Assembly: GCA_017403885.1 (NCBI GenBank)
Contig: JAFRDM010000059.1
Location: 1-42,769 of the forward strand
Length of the DNA: 42,769 nucleotides
Origin: Oscillospiraceae bacterium
GTDB lineage: Bacteria; Bacillota; Clostridia; Oscillospirales; Oscillospiraceae
Direction of reading: 5' to 3'
The position numbers and the translations under genes are program-made. Positions 12,787 through 42,769 of this stretch are shown one piece after another. Position 1 is the stretch's first letter, and each line of letters starts with the position of its first letter. Below the pieces are notes generated by a model. It was not told where the DNA came from. It was given only the letters and a program-made list of their open reading frames with translations, and did no database searches.

Positions 12787-15020
12787 TCAATTCACCGTCA
12801 GGGTGGCGGCATTGGAGATCGTGGTGCCGTTGGCGTTCTTTACAAGACAGCGGTACTGATAGCCATTCCGGTAGCTTTCGGCTGTGACGGAGAAGCTTGC
12901 CGTCGTCGCGGTGGCCGCTGAGCTGTTCCCCCATTCTCCGGAGGAATTGACACGGAATTGCCACTGATAGCTCGTCGCGTTGCTCGCAACCACCTTGAAT
13001 GTCACGGTCGAACCCGCCGAGGCAGTCTGGCTCTTCGGCTGCGTCGTGATCGTCGGCTTCCCGCCGCCCGTCACCGTCAGCGTCGCCGCGTTCGACGTAA
13101 CGCTGCCGTTCGCGTTCTTTACCAGACAGCGGTACTGATAGCCATTCCGGTAACTTTCGGCTGTGACGGAGAAGTTTGCCGTCGTCGCACTTGCCGCCGA
13201 GCTGTCCCCCCACTCGCCGGAGGAATTGATGCGGAATTGCCACTGATAGCTCGTCGCGCCGCTCGCAACTACCTTGAATGTCACAGTCGTGCCGGGGGCC
13301 GCTGTCTGGCTCTTCGGCTGGGTCGTAATCGTCGGCTTCCCGCCGCCCGTCACCGTCAGCGTCGCCGCGTTCGACGTAACGCTGCCGTTCGCGTTCGACA
13401 CCTTGCAGCGGTACTGATACCCGTTGCGGTGCATCTCCGCGGTGATTGAGAGCGTCGCCGTCTTCGCGCCCGTCGCACTGCTGTCGTTCCAGCTGTCCGT
13501 GCTCGACGCGCGGTACTGCCACTGATAGCTCGTCGCCCCCGTCGCCGCCACGGTAAACTTCGCCGTTGTGCCCGCCGCCGCGCTCTTGTTCGTCGGCTGC
13601 GTCGTGATTGTCGGCTTCGATCCGCCCGTCACCGTCAGTGTAGCCGCGTTCGACGTCACAGTGCCGTTCGCGTTCGACACCTTGCAGCGGTACTGATAGC
13701 CGTTGCGGTGTGTCTCGGCCGATATTGAGAGTGTCGCTGTCTTGGCCCCGGTCGCAGCGCTGTCATTCCAACTGCCGCTGCTGCTCGTGCGGTACTGCCA
13801 CTGATAGCTCGTAGCGCCCGTCGCCGCCACGGTGAACTTCGCCGTTGTGCCCGCCGCCGCGCTTTTGTTCGACGGCTGCGTCGTAATCGTCGGCTTCGCC
13901 CCGCCCGTCACCGTCAGCGTCGCCGCGTTCGAAATCACAGTGCCGCTCGCGTTCGACACCTTGCAGCGGTACTTGTACCCGTTGCGGTAGCTCTCCGCCG
14001 TGACGGAGAGCGTCGCGGTCTTCGCGCCGGTGCCGCTGCTGTTCTTCCAGCCGTCGGTGCTCGATGCGTAATACTGCCACTGGTAGCCTGTCGCGCCAGT
14101 CGCCGCCACGGTAAACTTCGCCGTCGCGCCCACCGCCGCGCTTTTGTTCGACGGCTGCGCCGTGATCGTCGGCTTGGAGGAGCTCGTCACCGTCAGCGTC
14201 GCCCCGTTGGAATAGGTCGTTCCGTTCGCGTTCGACACCGCGCAGCGGAACTGATACCCGTTCCTCGCAGTTGTTGCTGGAACGGTCATCGTCGCGGATT
14301 TCAGCCCCGAATAGGCCGTGCTCGTGATATTCGCCCAGGTGCCGCTGTTCCCCGTGCGATACTGCCACTGATAGCTCGTCGCGCCTGTCGCCGTCACCTT
14401 GAAGGTCGCGTTTGTTCCCGCAGCCGCCGTCTTGTTGCTCGGGTGCGCCGTGATCGTCGGCTTGGAGGCGCTCGTTACCGTCAGCGTCGCCCCGTTGGAA
14501 TAGGTCGTTCCTTTTGCGTTTGACACCGCGCAGCGGAACTGATACCCGTTCCTCGCAGTTGTCGCCGGAACGGTCTTCGTCGCGGATTTCAGCCCCGAAT
14601 AGGCCGTGCTCGTGATGTTCGCCCAAGTGCCGCTGCTGCTCGTGCGATACTGCCACTGGTAGCTCGTCGCATTGCTCGCTGCCACGGAGAACTTCGCCGT
14701 CGTACCTGCAGCCGCAGTCTTGTTCGAGGGCTGGGAGGTGATCGTCGGCTTGCTGGTCACGTTCACCGTCAGTATACCCTTCCAGCTTTGTTCCTCTCCG
14801 TAGCTGTTTGACACAAAGCAGCAGTATTCCACTCCGTCTCGGGCCGCCGTCGCCGGCACTTTCATCGTCGCGCTCTTCGCGCCGGTGATATCGCTCGCCG
14901 TGACGTTGAGCCAGTCCTCTTTGCTTTCACTCCAGTACTTCCACTGATAATCGGTCGCGCACATCACTGAGACCGAGAACGTCGCGGTAGCTCCCTGATC
15001 GACGGTCACATCCGCGGGAT
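12787..15020 (-). repeat. Tandem array of eight Ig-domain coding repeats (period about 275-290 bp)
   Basis: The coding repeats are not only similar in protein but nearly identical in DNA between neighbours. Examples are the two copies near the 3' end of the gene (about 12790-13060 and 13060-13340), the pair at about 13340-13900, and the pair at about 14180-14740. The outermost N-terminal copy (about 14760-15020) is the most divergent. This pattern points to duplication in pairs and ongoing gene conversion. Such arrays are prone to length change and to assembly collapse. Confidence 0.85.
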
Positions 15021-15519
15021 CTTCCACGACTACCGGCGGAATGGGGAGATTTCGTACCAAATCATCGTTGCCTTTACCGAAATAGACAGAATCCAGATAC
15101 TCACTTTCAAAGTTGACGCTATTCAATTTGCCGCAGCTGGCGAACGCATATTCATGGATGACCGTCACTTCGGGCGTAATACGAATGTACGTCAGATTTC
15201 CGCAGCCGCTGAACGCACGTTCCGCGATGGTCGACACGCCGTCTCCGATCCACACGGTCGACAAGTTCGGCAGATTGGAAAAGGCTCCGTCCTGAAAATC
15301 CAGGCCGCCGCCGCTCGGAGAGACTTCGATGGAGTTTATGCTCGACGCGTAGGTCATCCATGGGGCAGACGTCATTGCGCCGAAGCCGGTGATGGTCAGA
15401 CAGTTGTTGCTGAGTTCCCAGTTCATATCGTCGCCGCAGCTGCCGGACATGGCGTGCACCGCCGGGCTCAGCGACAGGCACAGCACCAGGCAAAGGAGCA
15501 GAGACAGGAAGCGTTTCAT
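12787..15519 (-). CDS. Secreted protein with BspA-like leucine-rich region and eight Ig-like repeats
   Basis: A 910-residue extracellular protein. The start at 15519 follows AAGGAGGG by 8 bases; an in-frame ATG 8 codons upstream lacks one. Residues 1-24 form a signal peptide (MKRFLSLLLCLVLCLSLSPA...VHA). Residues about 25-150 resemble a short BspA-type LRR_5 region (LTITGFGAM, IAERAFSGCGNLTYI, IHEYAFASCGKLNSV). Then eight Ig-like domains of about 92 residues follow, most opening KPTIT.QPSNK and containing SYQWQYRTSSSG, NGYQYRCKVSNANG and ATLTVT, with the Ig Trp and one Cys visible. No LPXTG, transmembrane tail or SLH domain is seen, so anchoring is unclear. A role in adhesion or matrix binding is inferred from the family. 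Confidence 0.93.
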   Translation of the reverse strand: MKRFLSLLLCLVLCLSLSPAVHAMSGSCGDDMNWELSNNCLTITGFGAMTSAPWMTYASSINSIEVSPSGGGLDFQDGAFSNLPNLSTVWIGDGVSTIAERAFSGCGNLTYIRITPEVTVIHEYAFASCGKLNSVNFESEYLDSVYFGKGNDDLVRNLPIPPVVVEDPADVTVDQGATATFSVSVMCATDYQWKYWSESKEDWLNVTASDITGAKSATMKVPATAARDGVEYCCFVSNSYGEEQSWKGILTVNVTSKPTITSQPSNKTAAAGTTAKFSVAASNATSYQWQYRTSSSGTWANITSTAYSGLKSATKTVPATTARNGYQFRCAVSNAKGTTYSNGATLTVTSASKPTITAHPSNKTAAAGTNATFKVTATGATSYQWQYRTGNSGTWANITSTAYSGLKSATMTVPATTARNGYQFRCAVSNANGTTYSNGATLTVTSSSKPTITAQPSNKSAAVGATAKFTVAATGATGYQWQYYASSTDGWKNSSGTGAKTATLSVTAESYRNGYKYRCKVSNASGTVISNAATLTVTGGAKPTITTQPSNKSAAAGTTAKFTVAATGATSYQWQYRTSSSGSWNDSAATGAKTATLSISAETHRNGYQYRCKVSNANGTVTSNAATLTVTGGSKPTITTQPTNKSAAAGTTAKFTVAATGATSYQWQYRASSTDSWNDSSATGAKTATLSITAEMHRNGYQYRCKVSNANGSVTSNAATLTVTGGGKPTITTQPKSQTAAPGTTVTFKVVASGATSYQWQFRINSSGEWGDSSAASATTANFSVTAESYRNGYQYRCLVKNANGSVTSNAATLTVTGGGKPTITTQPKSQTASAGSTVTFKVVASNATSYQWQFRVNSSGEWGNSSAATATTASFSVTAESYRNGYQYRCLVKNANGTTISNAATLTVN

Positions 15520-15896
15520 CGTGTTTTCCCTCCTTGAAAGCATGCTTTATCGCGTAGGAAATTCATTTTTCCCTTTTTTATGATTATATCGTTTTTCCCG
15601 TATTCAAGTCAAGGGATATGTGGGGTGAAAACGCAAAATGAAGCTATGAAAGCGCGGGATAGCGCGGCGCGTTCTTCTCTTTTCTTTCCGCCGCTTATTT
15701 TTTTCTTGTGCATCTTCCCCCGGCGTGGTATCGTATAATGGTCAAAACAAAGAAGCCCGATCCCTTCGCGCCGCGAGGGATGGGACCGCCGCTGAACTTC
15801 CTCTCTCTCCCTTTGTTCTTGTTTACATTTTTGTGATGTTTTTCCGAAACAATGTGATAAACTTTTCTTAAGAAATCTCCCCGGATGGTAGGACGA
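15520..15896. other. Divergent intergenic region between the Ig-repeat gene and the zinc-ribbon operon
   Basis: No gene fits here. It holds the Ig gene promoter (15583-15612), a TATAAT at 15734-15739 on the plus strand without a -35 at normal distance, and a hairpin ATCCCTT/GAGGGAT (about 15763-15784). An AT-rich stretch before the zinc-ribbon gene follows. The plus-strand leader from the 15734 box would be about 150 bases. Confidence 0.5.
15583..15612 (-). promoter_or_regulatory. Strong promoter of the Ig-repeat gene
   Basis: On the minus strand: TTGACT (15612-15607), 18-base spacer, TATAAT (15588-15583). The same boxes and spacing occur before the secreted solenoid gene at 39904-39933. Confidence 0.75.
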
Positions 15897-37292: not shown

Positions 37293-38363
37293 ATGAACGA
37301 ACAGCGCGTTTCTTCCCCCGCCTCGTCCGCACGGGTAAGATGGATTGATATTCTCAAGGCTCTCGGTCTGCTTCTGGTCATGATGTACCATATCCATGAC
37401 ACATGGATATTCAACGCTTTTTTACGGACCTTCTTTATTTCCGTTTTCTTTTTCGCGGGCGGCCTTCTGTACCGGGAACGTGATATCCTCTACGATCTCA
37501 AGCGCAGAGCGCGCACCCTCGTCGTGCCGTATTTTGTATTCGGGGCCGTGATCTTCCTGTATTGGATCGTCATCGAGCGGCGCTTCCGCCCGGAGGTCAC
37601 CACGCCCGCGGAGGCCTTGAAGGGACTTGTGCTGGGAGAGTTCCGCTATCTCGGCTTCCATTCCCATCTCTGGTTCCTCCCCTGTTACTTTGTCTGCTGC
37701 GTTCTTTACAACTGTCTCAGAAAGCTGACCGGGAGACGTGTGACCACCGCTGTGGCCGCTGCTTTGACCCTGCTGTTCGTGCTCTCTCCCGTTTTCAAAT
37801 ACCGGATCCCCGATCTGCCCTGGGGGCTTGACCGCGTCTGCCAGTATATCCTCTTTTTTGACCTCGGCACGATGCAGCCGATCCGCCGCACGCTTTCCGG
37901 GCTCAGCCGCCGCTCTCCTCTGTTCTGTTTTCCGATCGGTCTGGGCGTTTTTGTTCTCGGTTATTTTCTGCACCGGCTCGTCGGCTCGGGCAGTATCTGG
38001 TGGTTCGTGTGCGGCGCCGTGGGAACGCTCGCCTGCGTCCTGCTCGCCATGGCGCTGGACCGCTTTGATCTCGCTGCCCGCTCGCTGGCGCGTCTGGGCT
38101 TCATGTCGATCGTCTTTCTGTGCCTGCACGGCCCCTGTTACCGCGTGCTGATCAAGCTGCTGGCCATGCTGCTCCGCCGCGGGACCGACGCCGTCCGCGC
38201 AAGCTTTCTTCTCAGTCTTCTTGTTCTTCTCGCAACGCTGCTCGTCTGCACGGTTTTCTACATGCTCATCGACCGCTATCTGCCCTGGGTGATCAAGGCG
38301 CAGCCCGTCAGGGCGGAAAAAGCCGCGGACGACCGTTCAGGCAAGCACGCCAAACACTCATAA
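37293..38363 (+). CDS. Integral membrane acyltransferase family protein
   Basis: A 356-residue polytopic protein with about ten hydrophobic helices. It opens with VRWIDILKALGLLLVMMYHI, in which the conserved R-x-x-x-I-D and the His of the YH/D-H motif match the acyltransferase-3 (OafA/fucose-4-O-acetylase-like) family. These enzymes acetylate cell-surface polysaccharides using a membrane-relayed acyl group. HSHLWFLPCYFVCCVLYN is the second family landmark. The C-terminal tail is hydrophilic (about residues 335-356). The ATG at 37293 follows AAAGGAGA. It is separated from pgsA by 42 bases and from cysS by 13, so it is embedded in the run. Its base composition is a little less GC-rich, and its use of TTT/CTT is higher than in neighbours, suggesting a later insertion in the cluster. 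Confidence 0.87.
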   Translation: MNEQRVSSPASSARVRWIDILKALGLLLVMMYHIHDTWIFNAFLRTFFISVFFFAGGLLYRERDILYDLKRRARTLVVPYFVFGAVIFLYWIVIERRFRPEVTTPAEALKGLVLGEFRYLGFHSHLWFLPCYFVCCVLYNCLRKLTGRRVTTAVAAALTLLFVLSPVFKYRIPDLPWGLDRVCQYILFFDLGTMQPIRRTLSGLSRRSPLFCFPIGLGVFVLGYFLHRLVGSGSIWWFVCGAVGTLACVLLAMALDRFDLAARSLARLGFMSIVFLCLHGPCYRVLIKLLAMLLRRGTDAVRASFLLSLLVLLATLLVCTVFYMLIDRYLPWVIKAQPVRAEKAADDRSGKHAKHS

Positions 38364-39847: not shown

Positions 39848-39880
39848 AAACAGAGCCGTTTTTACGGCTCTGTTTATTTT
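39848..39880 (+). terminator. Terminator after cysS
   Basis: A perfect 12-bp stem (39848-39859 with 39864-39875) with a TTTT loop, followed by ATTTTT. Confidence 0.9.
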
Positions 39881-39903: not shown

Positions 39904-39933
39904 TTGACTTTTTTATACATTTTTCTTTATAAT
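39904..39933 (+). promoter_or_regulatory. Strong promoter of the solenoid surface-protein gene
   Basis: TTGACT (39904-39909), 18-base spacer, TATAAT (39928-39933), in an AT-rich island. The leader to the ATG at 40014 is about 74 bases and shows no riboswitch-like fold. Confidence 0.8.
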
Positions 39934-40013
39934 GTATATATCTATCCCCGTCAGCAGGGAAAACGGAAGTTTTTTCTTCAGCCACATGGAATAACAAAAC
40001 GGAGGAATCAGGT

Positions 40014-42769
40014 ATGAAGGATTGGAAGCGCATCCTCTCCAGCGTCCTTGTCTTCTGCATGCTGCTCAGCCTCGGGCCGGCGGCTTTTGCGGCAGAAGAC
40101 ACCAACGGCCGCGTATTGGTCGGCGACGGCGACACCGTTACGGTCGGGAACGTCACCGTTACCACGAACGGAAACGCCGTATGGGCTTACGGCGGCGCGA
40201 CCGTCAACGTTGAAGGCGACGTGTACCAGCAGGCCGTCGACAGCGAAGCAGAGTATAACCACATCAATCCCGTCGGAGCCAGCGGCAGCGGCAGCTCCTC
40301 GGAGGTCAGCGTCAGCGGAGACGTCATCGGCACCTCTCCCGCGGGCACGGACGTGTACGCCTACGCGCTGGACGGCGAAGCCTCCGTCAGCGTCGAAGGC
40401 GACGTCATCATGGATCTTGAGCCCGCGGTGACGGACGAGAACGGCGGCACGGGCGTTTACAGCTACGCCACCGGTGAGTCGGGCGCCGCCGAGGTCACCA
40501 TCGAAGGCAGTCTCAACGTTTCCGGCGAGGCAAGTGACGCGCACGGCATCCAGTCCTACGCGCAGGCTGACTATGAGGTATGGAACGAGGAGAGCGAGAC
40601 CTACACCTGGGTCGACGTCACCTCCTCCAGCTCCAGCAGCACCGTCTCCGTCGGCGGTGACGTCGCCGTCAGCGCCGAAGGCTATGTCACCGGGATCGAA
40701 GCAGCCGCCGAAGACGGCGGCACGTCCGTTGTGACCGTAGACGGCACCGTCAACGCGGATATCCTCTCTTCTGAAGAATCGGGCAGCGCCACCGGCGTGT
40801 ATACCAATGTCGAGCAGGCCTCCGGTACGGTCGAAGTGACCGTCGGCGAAGACGTCCTGATCAGCGGCGAAGCGAGCGTTTCCACCGGCGTCGCCGCCGA
40901 CGTCCACGCCTCTTCCACGGAATGGAATGAAGAAGCCGGCGAGTATCTGGATACCGGTCTCGACTCGACCACCGGCACCAGCGACGTGACCGTCGGCGGC
41001 GACGTCACCGTATTCGCATCCGATCAGGCCACCGGCATTGAAAACCATGCCGCCGAGGGCGGCGTCTCCACCGTAACGGTCGAGGGCAGCGTCTATGCCG
41101 AGGGAAACGGCGAAGAATCCGCCGACGCAATCGGTGTATCTTCCTACGCAGAGGACAATGGTTCCTCTGTCGTTACTGTCGGTGAAGACGTTACTGTCAT
41201 CGCGCAAAACAATGCCGACGCCGTCAGTGCGGCCGTGCAGAACGGCGGCACGTCCGAGATTTCGGTCGGCGGCGACGTTGAACTGGACATGACCCCCTCT
41301 GAGGCGTATGCTGATTCGCGTATCGTCAGCGCAGCCGCATCAGGCGACAGCGGGTCCGCCTCCGTCAGCGTCGAAGGCGACATCAGCGTCTCCGGTAATC
41401 CCGACCATGTCGTCGGCGTGTCAGCCGACGCGCATGGCTCGTACTCGTACTATGACTCCGAAGCAGGTGAGTTCGTCTATGTCGAGATCGATTCCACCTC
41501 TGCCTCCGCTTCCGTTACCGTCGGCGGCGACGTCACGGTTTCCGGCGAGTACGGCGCCACGGGCGTGTCCGCCGAGTCGTCCGAAGGCGGCACGAGCGAA
41601 GTCACGGTCGAGGGCGATGTTTCCTCCGACGCCGGACACGGGGGCGCGAACGCCAATTCCTGCGGCGTAGACGCTCTTGCCAACAAAGACGGCGTCACGA
41701 ACGTGACCGTCGGGGGCGGCGTCACGGCCACTCTGGATGCGGCGGTCGGCACCGCACACGCCGTCGACGTCACCGCGCAGGACGGCGGCGAAGCCGTCGT
41801 CACTCTCAACGGCGACGTCAGCGCAGATTCCTCCGCGGATGCAATAGGCTTGGGCGTTTTCTCCACTCAGGACGCCACAGCTTCCGTCACCGTGAACGGC
41901 GACGTCAGCGCGGACGGTCGGTTCGCGCAGGGCGTTGCCGTGACGGCCCATTCGAATGCCCAGGCCGACGCGACCGTGAACGGCGACGTCACGGCCTCCG
42001 GCGAGGGTGAAACCTGCGCCGTCGGCGTAGGCGCCTACTCCGACAGCAGCGTCACTCTGATCCTCAACGGCAGCGTCAGCGCCGAGACCTCCTCCGACAA
42101 GGCCTCCTCCACCGGTCTCTCGATCGGCGCCGCCACTCAGGGCTCGGTCAACGTTACGGTAAACGGTGATATCAGCGCCGACAACGCGCTCTATATCCAC
42201 ACGGCCACCCCGTCCGACGTCGTTCCCAAGGAGGTCAGGGTGACCGTCGACGGCACGATCTCCGGCAGCACGAGCTCCATCCAGTTTGAAGGCAATGCCG
42301 AGGATCTGACTCTGACGGTCTGGAAGGTCGATCTGGATGAGGATGGACATGCTGTCACGGCCGTCACCAGAAATTCCGAGTCGGATCCCGACCTTTCGGC
42401 GGAAGAGCTCGACGAGATGAACGCCAAGAGCGCCGAGATCGCCGAGCAGGTCGAGCAGAACATCCTCTACATCATCAAGCTCGAGCAGCCCACGGAGGGC
42501 GGCACGCTGTCTCTGGGCGGCACCACCAAGAGCGACGGCTACGACGTGGCCAAGGAAGGCGACAACGTCACGCTGTATATCGCTGTGGCGGACGGCTATC
42601 AGGTCGACGGCGCGTATAACGGCGACGGCACGCAGATGGCCCTTCAGAAAGACAGCGACGGGAACTACTTCCTGGTCGTTCCCAGAGGCGGCGGCGTATG
42701 CCTGCGCGCCGTGATGTCGCTGATCTCCGTGATAGAAGACATTACTCCCGAACCCGAGCCCGAACCCGA
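40014..42769 (+). CDS. Large secreted repetitive protein, predicted beta-solenoid (3' end outside window)
   Basis: The frame opens at ATG 40014, after GGAGG, and has no stop before the window ends: 918 codons are visible. Residues 1-26 are a signal peptide (KRILSSVLVFCMLLSL...AFA). Residues about 45-780 consist of about 21 degenerate repeats of 27-50 residues, each opening V-T-V-x-G-D-V and passing through A-T-G-V-x-A-x-A to a G-G-x-S turn. The pattern of short strands separated by Gly/Asp turns suggests a right-handed beta-helix. Three repeats carry an inserted loop with related sequence (W/Y-N/D-E-E-x-G/E-x-Y/F). From about residue 780 a different region begins, with a possible InlB-B-like repeat (EGGTLSLGG ... 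GYQVDGAYNGDGTQM) and a Pro-Glu linker at the window edge. It is very acidic, with few Lys/Arg. The function is unknown; adhesion is a guess. Confidence 0.9.
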   Translation, partial: MKDWKRILSSVLVFCMLLSLGPAAFAAEDTNGRVLVGDGDTVTVGNVTVTTNGNAVWAYGGATVNVEGDVYQQAVDSEAEYNHINPVGASGSGSSSEVSVSGDVIGTSPAGTDVYAYALDGEASVSVEGDVIMDLEPAVTDENGGTGVYSYATGESGAAEVTIEGSLNVSGEASDAHGIQSYAQADYEVWNEESETYTWVDVTSSSSSSTVSVGGDVAVSAEGYVTGIEAAAEDGGTSVVTVDGTVNADILSSEESGSATGVYTNVEQASGTVEVTVGEDVLISGEASVSTGVAADVHASSTEWNEEAGEYLDTGLDSTTGTSDVTVGGDVTVFASDQATGIENHAAEGGVSTVTVEGSVYAEGNGEESADAIGVSSYAEDNGSSVVTVGEDVTVIAQNNADAVSAAVQNGGTSEISVGGDVELDMTPSEAYADSRIVSAAASGDSGSASVSVEGDISVSGNPDHVVGVSADAHGSYSYYDSEAGEFVYVEIDSTSASASVTVGGDVTVSGEYGATGVSAESSEGGTSEVTVEGDVSSDAGHGGANANSCGVDALANKDGVTNVTVGGGVTATLDAAVGTAHAVDVTAQDGGEAVVTLNGDVSADSSADAIGLGVFSTQDATASVTVNGDVSADGRFAQGVAVTAHSNAQADATVNGDVTASGEGETCAVGVGAYSDSSVTLILNGSVSAETSSDKASSTGLSIGAATQGSVNVTVNGDISADNALYIHTATPSDVVPKEVRVTVDGTISGSTSSIQFEGNAEDLTLTVWKVDLDEDGHAVTAVTRNSESDPDLSAEELDEMNAKSAEIAEQVEQNILYIIKLEQPTEGGTLSLGGTTKSDGYDVAKEGDNVTLYIAVADGYQVDGAYNGDGTQMALQKDSDGNYFLVVPRGGGVCLRAVMSLISVIEDITPEPEPEP

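Follow-up and report, generated by a model that had tools for sequence, protein, structure and literature searches.

What kind of protein is encoded by the long, repetitive reading frame that runs off the end of this contig, and what could such a protein do for the cell that makes it? The window, meaning the whole stretch of DNA that was analysed, comprises all 42769 bases of contig C38 in genome G000, and the gene is therefore truncated by the assembly at 42769. The frame is open from an ATG at 40014 to the contig end over 918 codons. A promoter-like site and a Shine-Dalgarno-like site lie in front of it (Table 1), and the former indicates that the gene probably has its own transcript. By reading, the window protein has a signal peptide, which is one of the marks of fibrillar adhesins, and this signal peptide suggests that the protein is Sec-secreted. 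The first 28 residues are 67.9% identical to the window protein in genome G443 and 75.0% in genome G026. The sequence-only reading had listed a signal peptide, a promoter, a ribosome binding site and at least 918 codons, and all of these are present at 40014. No second copy of the gene was found in its own genome, which is 77.5% complete. A phage or plasmid origin was rejected because no such relatives were found: P0003 has no tblastn match among phages or plasmids, the best PHROG match (0.24) is insignificant, and P0001 has no relative on viral contigs.

Table 1. Positions of the features described for the gene and its product (positions in the window; residues numbered from the ATG at 40014).
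Feature	Positions	Strand	Basis
Intrinsic terminator-like hairpin, upstream cysS	39848..39875	+	0.3 expected
Promoter-like TTGACT-18-TATAAT	39904..39933	+	11/12 match; 0.4 expected (shuffles of stretch)
Shine-Dalgarno-like GGAGGA	40001..40006	+	by reading
Signal peptide, residues ~1-27	40014..40094	+	by reading; similar in G443 and G026
Putative solenoid array, residues ~64-739, 20 motif-bearing rungs	40203..42230	+	motif count, rung alignment
Long aromatic insertion, rung from residue 161, contains YEVWNEESETYTWV	40557..40634	+	
Long aromatic insertion, rung from residue 275, contains TEWNEEAGEYL	40899..40976	+	
Long aromatic insertion, rung from residue 451, contains YSYYDSEAGEFVYV	41427..41504	+	
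Conserved C-terminal module, residues ~740-900, opens with the 21st motif	42231..42713	+	alignment A2
Module half resembling Flg_new_2 (PF18998)	42549..42692	+	hhalign, A2 vs A9
Start of Pro-Glu linker, contig ends inside	42747..42769	+	sequence

The body of the protein is a long array of repeats. The window protein features 21 motifs of the V-x-V-x-G-[DSN]-V type with a start-to-start spacing of 27-50 residues, and 20 of them lie in the body (residues 27-745), where 2000 shuffles of the same stretch gave a mean of 0.64 motifs and a maximum of 4. The motif pattern was drawn up from examples that had already been seen, but the gap between the observed and shuffled counts is wide. The count agrees with the description of about 21 V-T-V-x-G-D-V coils with a 27-50-residue unit that had been given from the sequence. 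Alignment of 48 units from four proteins yields a rung of 28-29 residues with the consensus [AST]-[TSE]-V-T-V-x-G-[DSN]-V-[ST]-A...A-T-G-V-x-A-x-A...G-G. The rung consists of a V-T-V strand, a G-[DSN] turn, V-[ST]-A, a loop, the stretch A-T-G-V-x-A-x-A and a G-G turn, with hydrophobic residues alternating in and out, and this pattern appears to fit one coil of a three-sided parallel beta-helix. The body contains 114 acidic and 7 basic residues, which amounts to a net charge of about -107 over 719 residues. At the DNA level, Tandem Repeats Finder reports only periods of 6-18 in the solenoid array, whereas the Ig array elsewhere in the window scores 832-1307; the 19 motif copies compared over 36 nt nevertheless share 64-81% of their positions with one reference. 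The repeats have therefore drifted apart in their DNA as had been proposed, unlike those of the Ig array, but the conclusion that the array is old does not follow, since the array diverges fast between close species and drift between rungs is then no measure of age. The Ig array belongs to a 918-residue protein at 12787-15543 (-) with a match to LRR_5 at residues 83-147 and eight Ig_3/I-set stretches in a tandem array with a 279-288-nt unit, that is, animal-like Ig domains in a bacterial protein.

Three of the rungs are 50 residues long because they carry a Trp/Tyr-rich insertion. With loop borders that were defined after inspection of the loops, the three insertions contain 12 aromatic residues in 78 positions, versus 19 in the remaining 641 residues of the body, and three of the four Trp residues of the body sit in them. 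The proteins of G443, G026 and a further genome, G025, also have long rungs with Trp or Tyr. Aromatic loops of this kind on a beta-helix would form a plausible sugar-binding surface.

Direct searches did not connect the array to a known family. The window protein has no match to Pfam Beta_helix (PF13229), its sole Pfam row at a limit of 10 is DUF6385 at 0.23, and it has no significant match to Pectate_lyase_5 or to any solved beta-helix. An NCBIfam match to ExtJ over residues 5-67 (E 0.0002) was rejected, as it begins in the signal peptide and falls far below the curated score. Searches of the PDB with the window protein and with profiles A1, A6 and A8 returned nothing significant; rows naming a DARPin and a dehydrogenase look like chance. 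The weak top PDB matches are bactofilins for profile A1 (bactofilin A, E 0.12) and profile A8 (E 0.69). For profile A6 only other chains are listed, at insignificant values from 0.3, and we know of no beta-helix structure among its top chains. Bactofilins, which we take to be family PF04519, are cytoplasmic, short proteins with a beta-helix of similar cadence, and these profile matches do not amount to significant similarity to the window protein. The statement in the sequence-only reading that no known domain covers the array holds, since no Pfam, NCBIfam or PDB family fits it.

The rung pattern together with a set of intermediate proteins argues for a solenoid fold. Profile A6, which was built from three-rung stretches, finds matches at E<=0.001 in 12 of the 397 other phylum genomes searched. 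Two of the 12 places (L101 and L103) are not rung-like by eye and were left out when the remaining ten proteins were scanned with Pfam. Beta_helix was found in two of the ten, at 7.8e-6 and 2.1e-5, of which one reaches 26.0 bits against a cut-off of 25.9 and the other falls below it, and in neither does a single stretch pass on its own. Pectate_lyase_5 matches one of the ten (1.5e-5), outside its rungs. Flg_new is present in three and Flg_new_2 in one; one (L107) carries SLH, and by eye the ends of two others (L098 and L106) resemble SLH. Profile A8 was made from seven rung stretches (L097, L098, L099 and L104-L107), and three stretches that are partly rung-like by eye (L100, L102 and L108) were left out. 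When these seven stretches are scanned alone, Beta_helix is listed in four at a limit of E 10, the best at 2.5e-5. Comparison of A6 with the A8 rungs gives a probability of 96.6, and with the Ig array of the window 0.1; the first value is partly circular because A8 was chosen from A6 matches, and the second comes from a control of a single sequence. These proteins of other phylum members resemble the window protein in their rungs, by A6, and the genus-specific C-terminal module of the window family was not found in the L097-L113 stretches. A right-handed beta-helix is thus reached through intermediate proteins, from A6 to Beta_helix, by a match that is weak and indirect. The earlier picture of a secreted, acidic solenoid agrees with the signal peptide, the acidic body, the regular alternating rung and this indirect Beta_helix link; its statements about age and calcium are the parts that are not supported.

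The array is followed by the conserved C-terminal module, whose second half resembles Flg_new_2. In a single hhalign pair, A2 against A9, the probability is 95.3 with E 2.3e-8; five of the six rows of A9 were found through A2, so the comparison is partly circular, and Pfam names those rows independently. The Pfam model for Flg_new_2 / InlB B-repeat (PF18998) has no direct match in the module. Among 26 members of the family it matches one at 0.01, evidently L073 and outside the module, and Flg_new is found in nine. The module gives way to a Pro-Glu linker, in which the contig ends. When the tail domains of three relatives were made into a profile (A7) and compared with the same genome, a single place matched, at bases 79-447 of contig C86 (E 7e-34), and C86 begins inside a Pro-Glu repeat like that at the end of C38. 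Because the two contig ends share this repeat, the assembly most likely broke in the linker, and the gene most likely continues on C86, bases 1-447, which would make C38 and C86 parts of one gene. The full protein would have roughly 1,070 residues (918 plus 149 codons on C86), with the length of the linker uncertain. The C86 tail consists of linker, a small domain of about 100 residues and a stop; the small domain shows a weak resemblance to Lipocalin_4 (E 0.0043, below the cut-off). Convergent with this tail and adjoining it on C86 is a gene for a DUF1002 protein (L117 537-1529 (-), E 3.5e-71). A family gene in another genome (L072, G435:C24) also stops at a contig end inside a Pro-Glu repeat. 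Assemblies seem to break in the Pro-Glu linker, and genes of this kind may therefore often appear incomplete in MAGs.

The sequence-only reading had looked to the region past the window for an anchor. No LPXTG, SLH or membrane segment is present in the C86 tail, and none was seen in the relatives that were read. In Pfam at 0.01, none of the 26 members has an SLH or LPXTG anchor, and neither an anchor-like motif nor a long hydrophobic run is seen in the final 80 residues of 27 ORF rows, of which one is a duplicate and three or more are truncated by a contig end. A single LPPTG occurs in L073, in the middle of the protein. A cell-wall anchor, another mark of fibrillar adhesins, was thus not found in the 26 members or the C86 tail, and the lack of an anchor in the tail and the relatives read speaks against a classical adhesin. 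The host genome, at 77.5% completeness, has one sortase match. The only SLH match found in it is in a protein with a transglutaminase core (L118 2686-4275 (-), G000:C35).

The relatives share one architecture, which comprises a signal peptide, rungs of 28-29 residues, the C-terminal module, a linker and a variable tail. P0001 has relatives in 7 of 60 genomes, its own included, and the named relative is an Oscillospiraceae MAG from goat reticulum. The module profile A2 matches 22 of 102 genomes of the genus, its own included and some of them at several places; the weakest match in the genus (G451, 9.7e-4) covers one third of the model. Weak matches (1.1e-5 to 9.8e-4) were also obtained in 9 of 393 further genomes of the order. 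Five of 14 order loci were read, and all five carry PF18998 and SLH; PF18998 covers the place matched by A2 in four of them, and in L023 the best of its two stretches lies elsewhere. No match was found in 397 other genomes of the phylum. From these counts the full module looks restricted to the genus in the sampled genomes. Neither Pfam nor NCBIfam names this family, which is patchy within one genus, and among the literature matches listed no title or abstract opening describes it (subscription papers were mostly outside the search). Two members show features of their own. The end of L073 (6073-10194 (+), G435:C156) resembles YadA head repeats by eye, and Pfam gave no confirmation of YadA. The family gene on G031:C48 (L017/L006, ~1-2600) has an in-frame TAG in a low-complexity Gly-Glu-Asn stretch; downstream of it is a small frame that is PepSY-like by eye, with a stop just before KLDDQQLGNVAGG, which resembles a double-glycine leader.

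The gene follows cysS in three species, those of the window, G443 and G026, with the neighbour order rimO, pgsA, acyltransferase, cysS, gene; no acyltransferase was detected in G026. The gene of G025, which encodes a complete relative of 678 residues, has a different location, and no cysS match was seen within the 12 kb examined. In G443 and G026, respectively, CysS is 95.2% and 97.7% identical to that of the window, RimO 89.7 and 90.9%, and PgsA 88.8 and 89.2%. The module is only 61.5 and 64.1% identical and the tail 45.9 and 45.0%, and the array falls to 39.2% and 39.1%, with lengths of 716 residues in the window, 600 in G443 and 556 in G026. Between species, then, the array changes fast in both sequence and length, and the new finding here is that so strongly diverged an array follows cysS in an otherwise conserved neighbourhood. 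Divergence next to conserved neighbours is usual for exposed surface proteins. The cluster has a second variable spot in the acyltransferase gene (37293-38363 (+)) that separates pgsA from cysS, which is 58% identical in G443, while its neighbours are 89-98% identical.

When the rung order of the relative was permuted, the mean identity was 38.2 for G443 and 36.7 for G026, and for G025 it was 43.0 against 41.5 observed, so that, position by position, the arrays are about as identical as randomly paired rungs would be. The observed alignment score, however, was reached by 0, 3 and 1 of 200 permutations (G443, G026 and G025), which indicates that some of the original order remains, and wholesale reshuffling of rungs between species is not supported. 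Reciprocal best rungs with the window number five in G443 and three in G026, out of order, and three in G025, in order. Of the rungs in each array, 10 of 20 (window), 7 of 15 (G443), 2 of 13 (G026) and 5 of 11 (G025) have their best match in the same array, and 9, 8, 11 and 6, respectively, have it in another species.

The interpretation that best fits these results, with a probability of about 0.6, is that the protein is a secreted, fast-diverging adhesive solenoid with a pectate-lyase-like fold, a rod with a ligand surface on its loop side. An adhesive or ligand-binding surface protein would best accommodate secretion, a solenoid, aromatic loops and fast change in a genus of which one member comes from the goat forestomach. 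The gene product would be secreted by the Sec route, strongly acidic and about 1,070 residues long, with about 21 rungs of 28-29 residues stacked into a right-handed parallel beta-helix rod. Three rungs would present their longer Trp/Tyr loops at the same rung position, and the side of the rod that bears them would be the putative ligand surface. Polysaccharide from plants or mucus would be one candidate ligand, by analogy with the beta-solenoid binding region of the serine-rich repeat protein (SRRP) of Lactobacillus reuteri. The C-terminal module with its Flg_new_2-like half, the linker and the small tail may hold the rod at the cell surface, or orient it there, with no covalent attachment; alternatively, the protein may be released. 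Between species, the rungs would diverge and change in number quickly. A bolder version of the adhesive reading is that one genus has an anchorless class of secreted beta-solenoid adhesins, whose rod array after cysS is renewed between close species, exchanging ligand specificity or antigenicity while the signal peptide and module are kept, and whose module is a new device for non-covalent retention at the surface. This version is doubtful, and the residual rung order lowers its odds.

The strongest of the other explanations, although an unlikely one, is a structural role in which released rods assemble with one another to form an extracellular coat or a fibre of the biofilm and bind no specific ligand. 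It would agree with the missing anchor in the tail and in the relatives read, with the acidic, Ser/Thr/Gly-rich rungs of the window protein and with the weak PDB resemblance to bactofilin, which is a polymer-forming beta-helix. Length and surface tend to be conserved in proteins that form polymers, however, and this is not so for arrays of 716, 600 and 556 residues that are about 39% identical between close species. Alternatively, the protein could be a fast-changing surface antigen or a decoy for phage or the immune system, in which case the variation itself would be the function. Arrays at the same site, next to a CysS that is 95-98% identical, share no more identity than permuted rung orders do, as such a role would allow; but fast change would equally suit a change of ligand or relaxed constraint, and, given the alignment scores, wholesale reshuffling is not demonstrated, so this role is quite doubtful. 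A disordered or calcium-responsive acidic repeat protein is very unlikely. The high negative charge of the body and an Asp at the corner in 29 of the 48 aligned units (four proteins) could point to it, but the corner is Ser or Asn in 16 of the 48, which disfavours an obligatory calcium site and tells against the earlier idea of calcium-binding, Asp-rich turns; additionally, no RTX, calcium beta-roll or other calcium-repeat family is among the Pfam matches of the window protein, and the strong V-x-V alternation argues for folded strands. A polysaccharide lyase or another pectate-lyase-like enzyme is hardly credible even though the probable fold is that of pectate lyases and the nearest named relative comes from goat reticulum, where plant polysaccharide is food, as no enzyme family lies above the cut-off in Pfam or NCBIfam and an active site would hardly tolerate array lengths and rung sequences that vary so widely between close species.

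The adhesive solenoid can be compared with systems that have been described. Beta-solenoid binding proteins are a known means for gut Firmicutes to hold mucus or plant material, and to our knowledge the nearest characterised analogue is the binding region of the L. reuteri SRRP. This region, a PelC-like right-handed beta-solenoid, is reported to bind mucins and epithelial cells when the pH is neutral and pectic polymers when it is acidic, and the protein is marked by a long atypical signal of about 90 residues, serine-rich flanks and LPXTG (PMC6973325). The window protein is likewise Gram-positive and secreted, with a probable right-handed beta-solenoid and a proposed role in carbohydrate or cell binding; it differs, by reading, in its short signal peptide and in the absence of flanking serine-rich repeats and of LPXTG, as well as in its regular rungs of 28-29 residues and the absence of a significant PDB match. 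Predicted solenoid adhesive domains in proteins of Firmicutes or Actinobacteria are reported by Monzon and Bateman 2022 as clusters 1 and 12 (PMC9210967); the likeness to these clusters is one of description alone, and no known anchor is present in the window protein. A further case is provided by the giant solenoid proteins of Apilactobacillus (PMC12863079). The window protein may work like the SRRP, the Monzon and Bateman or the Apilactobacillus solenoids, but it is not filed under any of these systems, since no anchor and no serine-rich repeats were found and there is no direct family match. The locus does not represent a new kind of system; what it adds is a likely completed architecture, the absence of an anchor, a family at the level of one genus and the divergence contrast, in that the family changes far faster than the genes next to it. 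If a ligand is bound, it would offer a tractable case of how the surface of a solenoid adhesin changes and how such a protein is retained without a known anchor.
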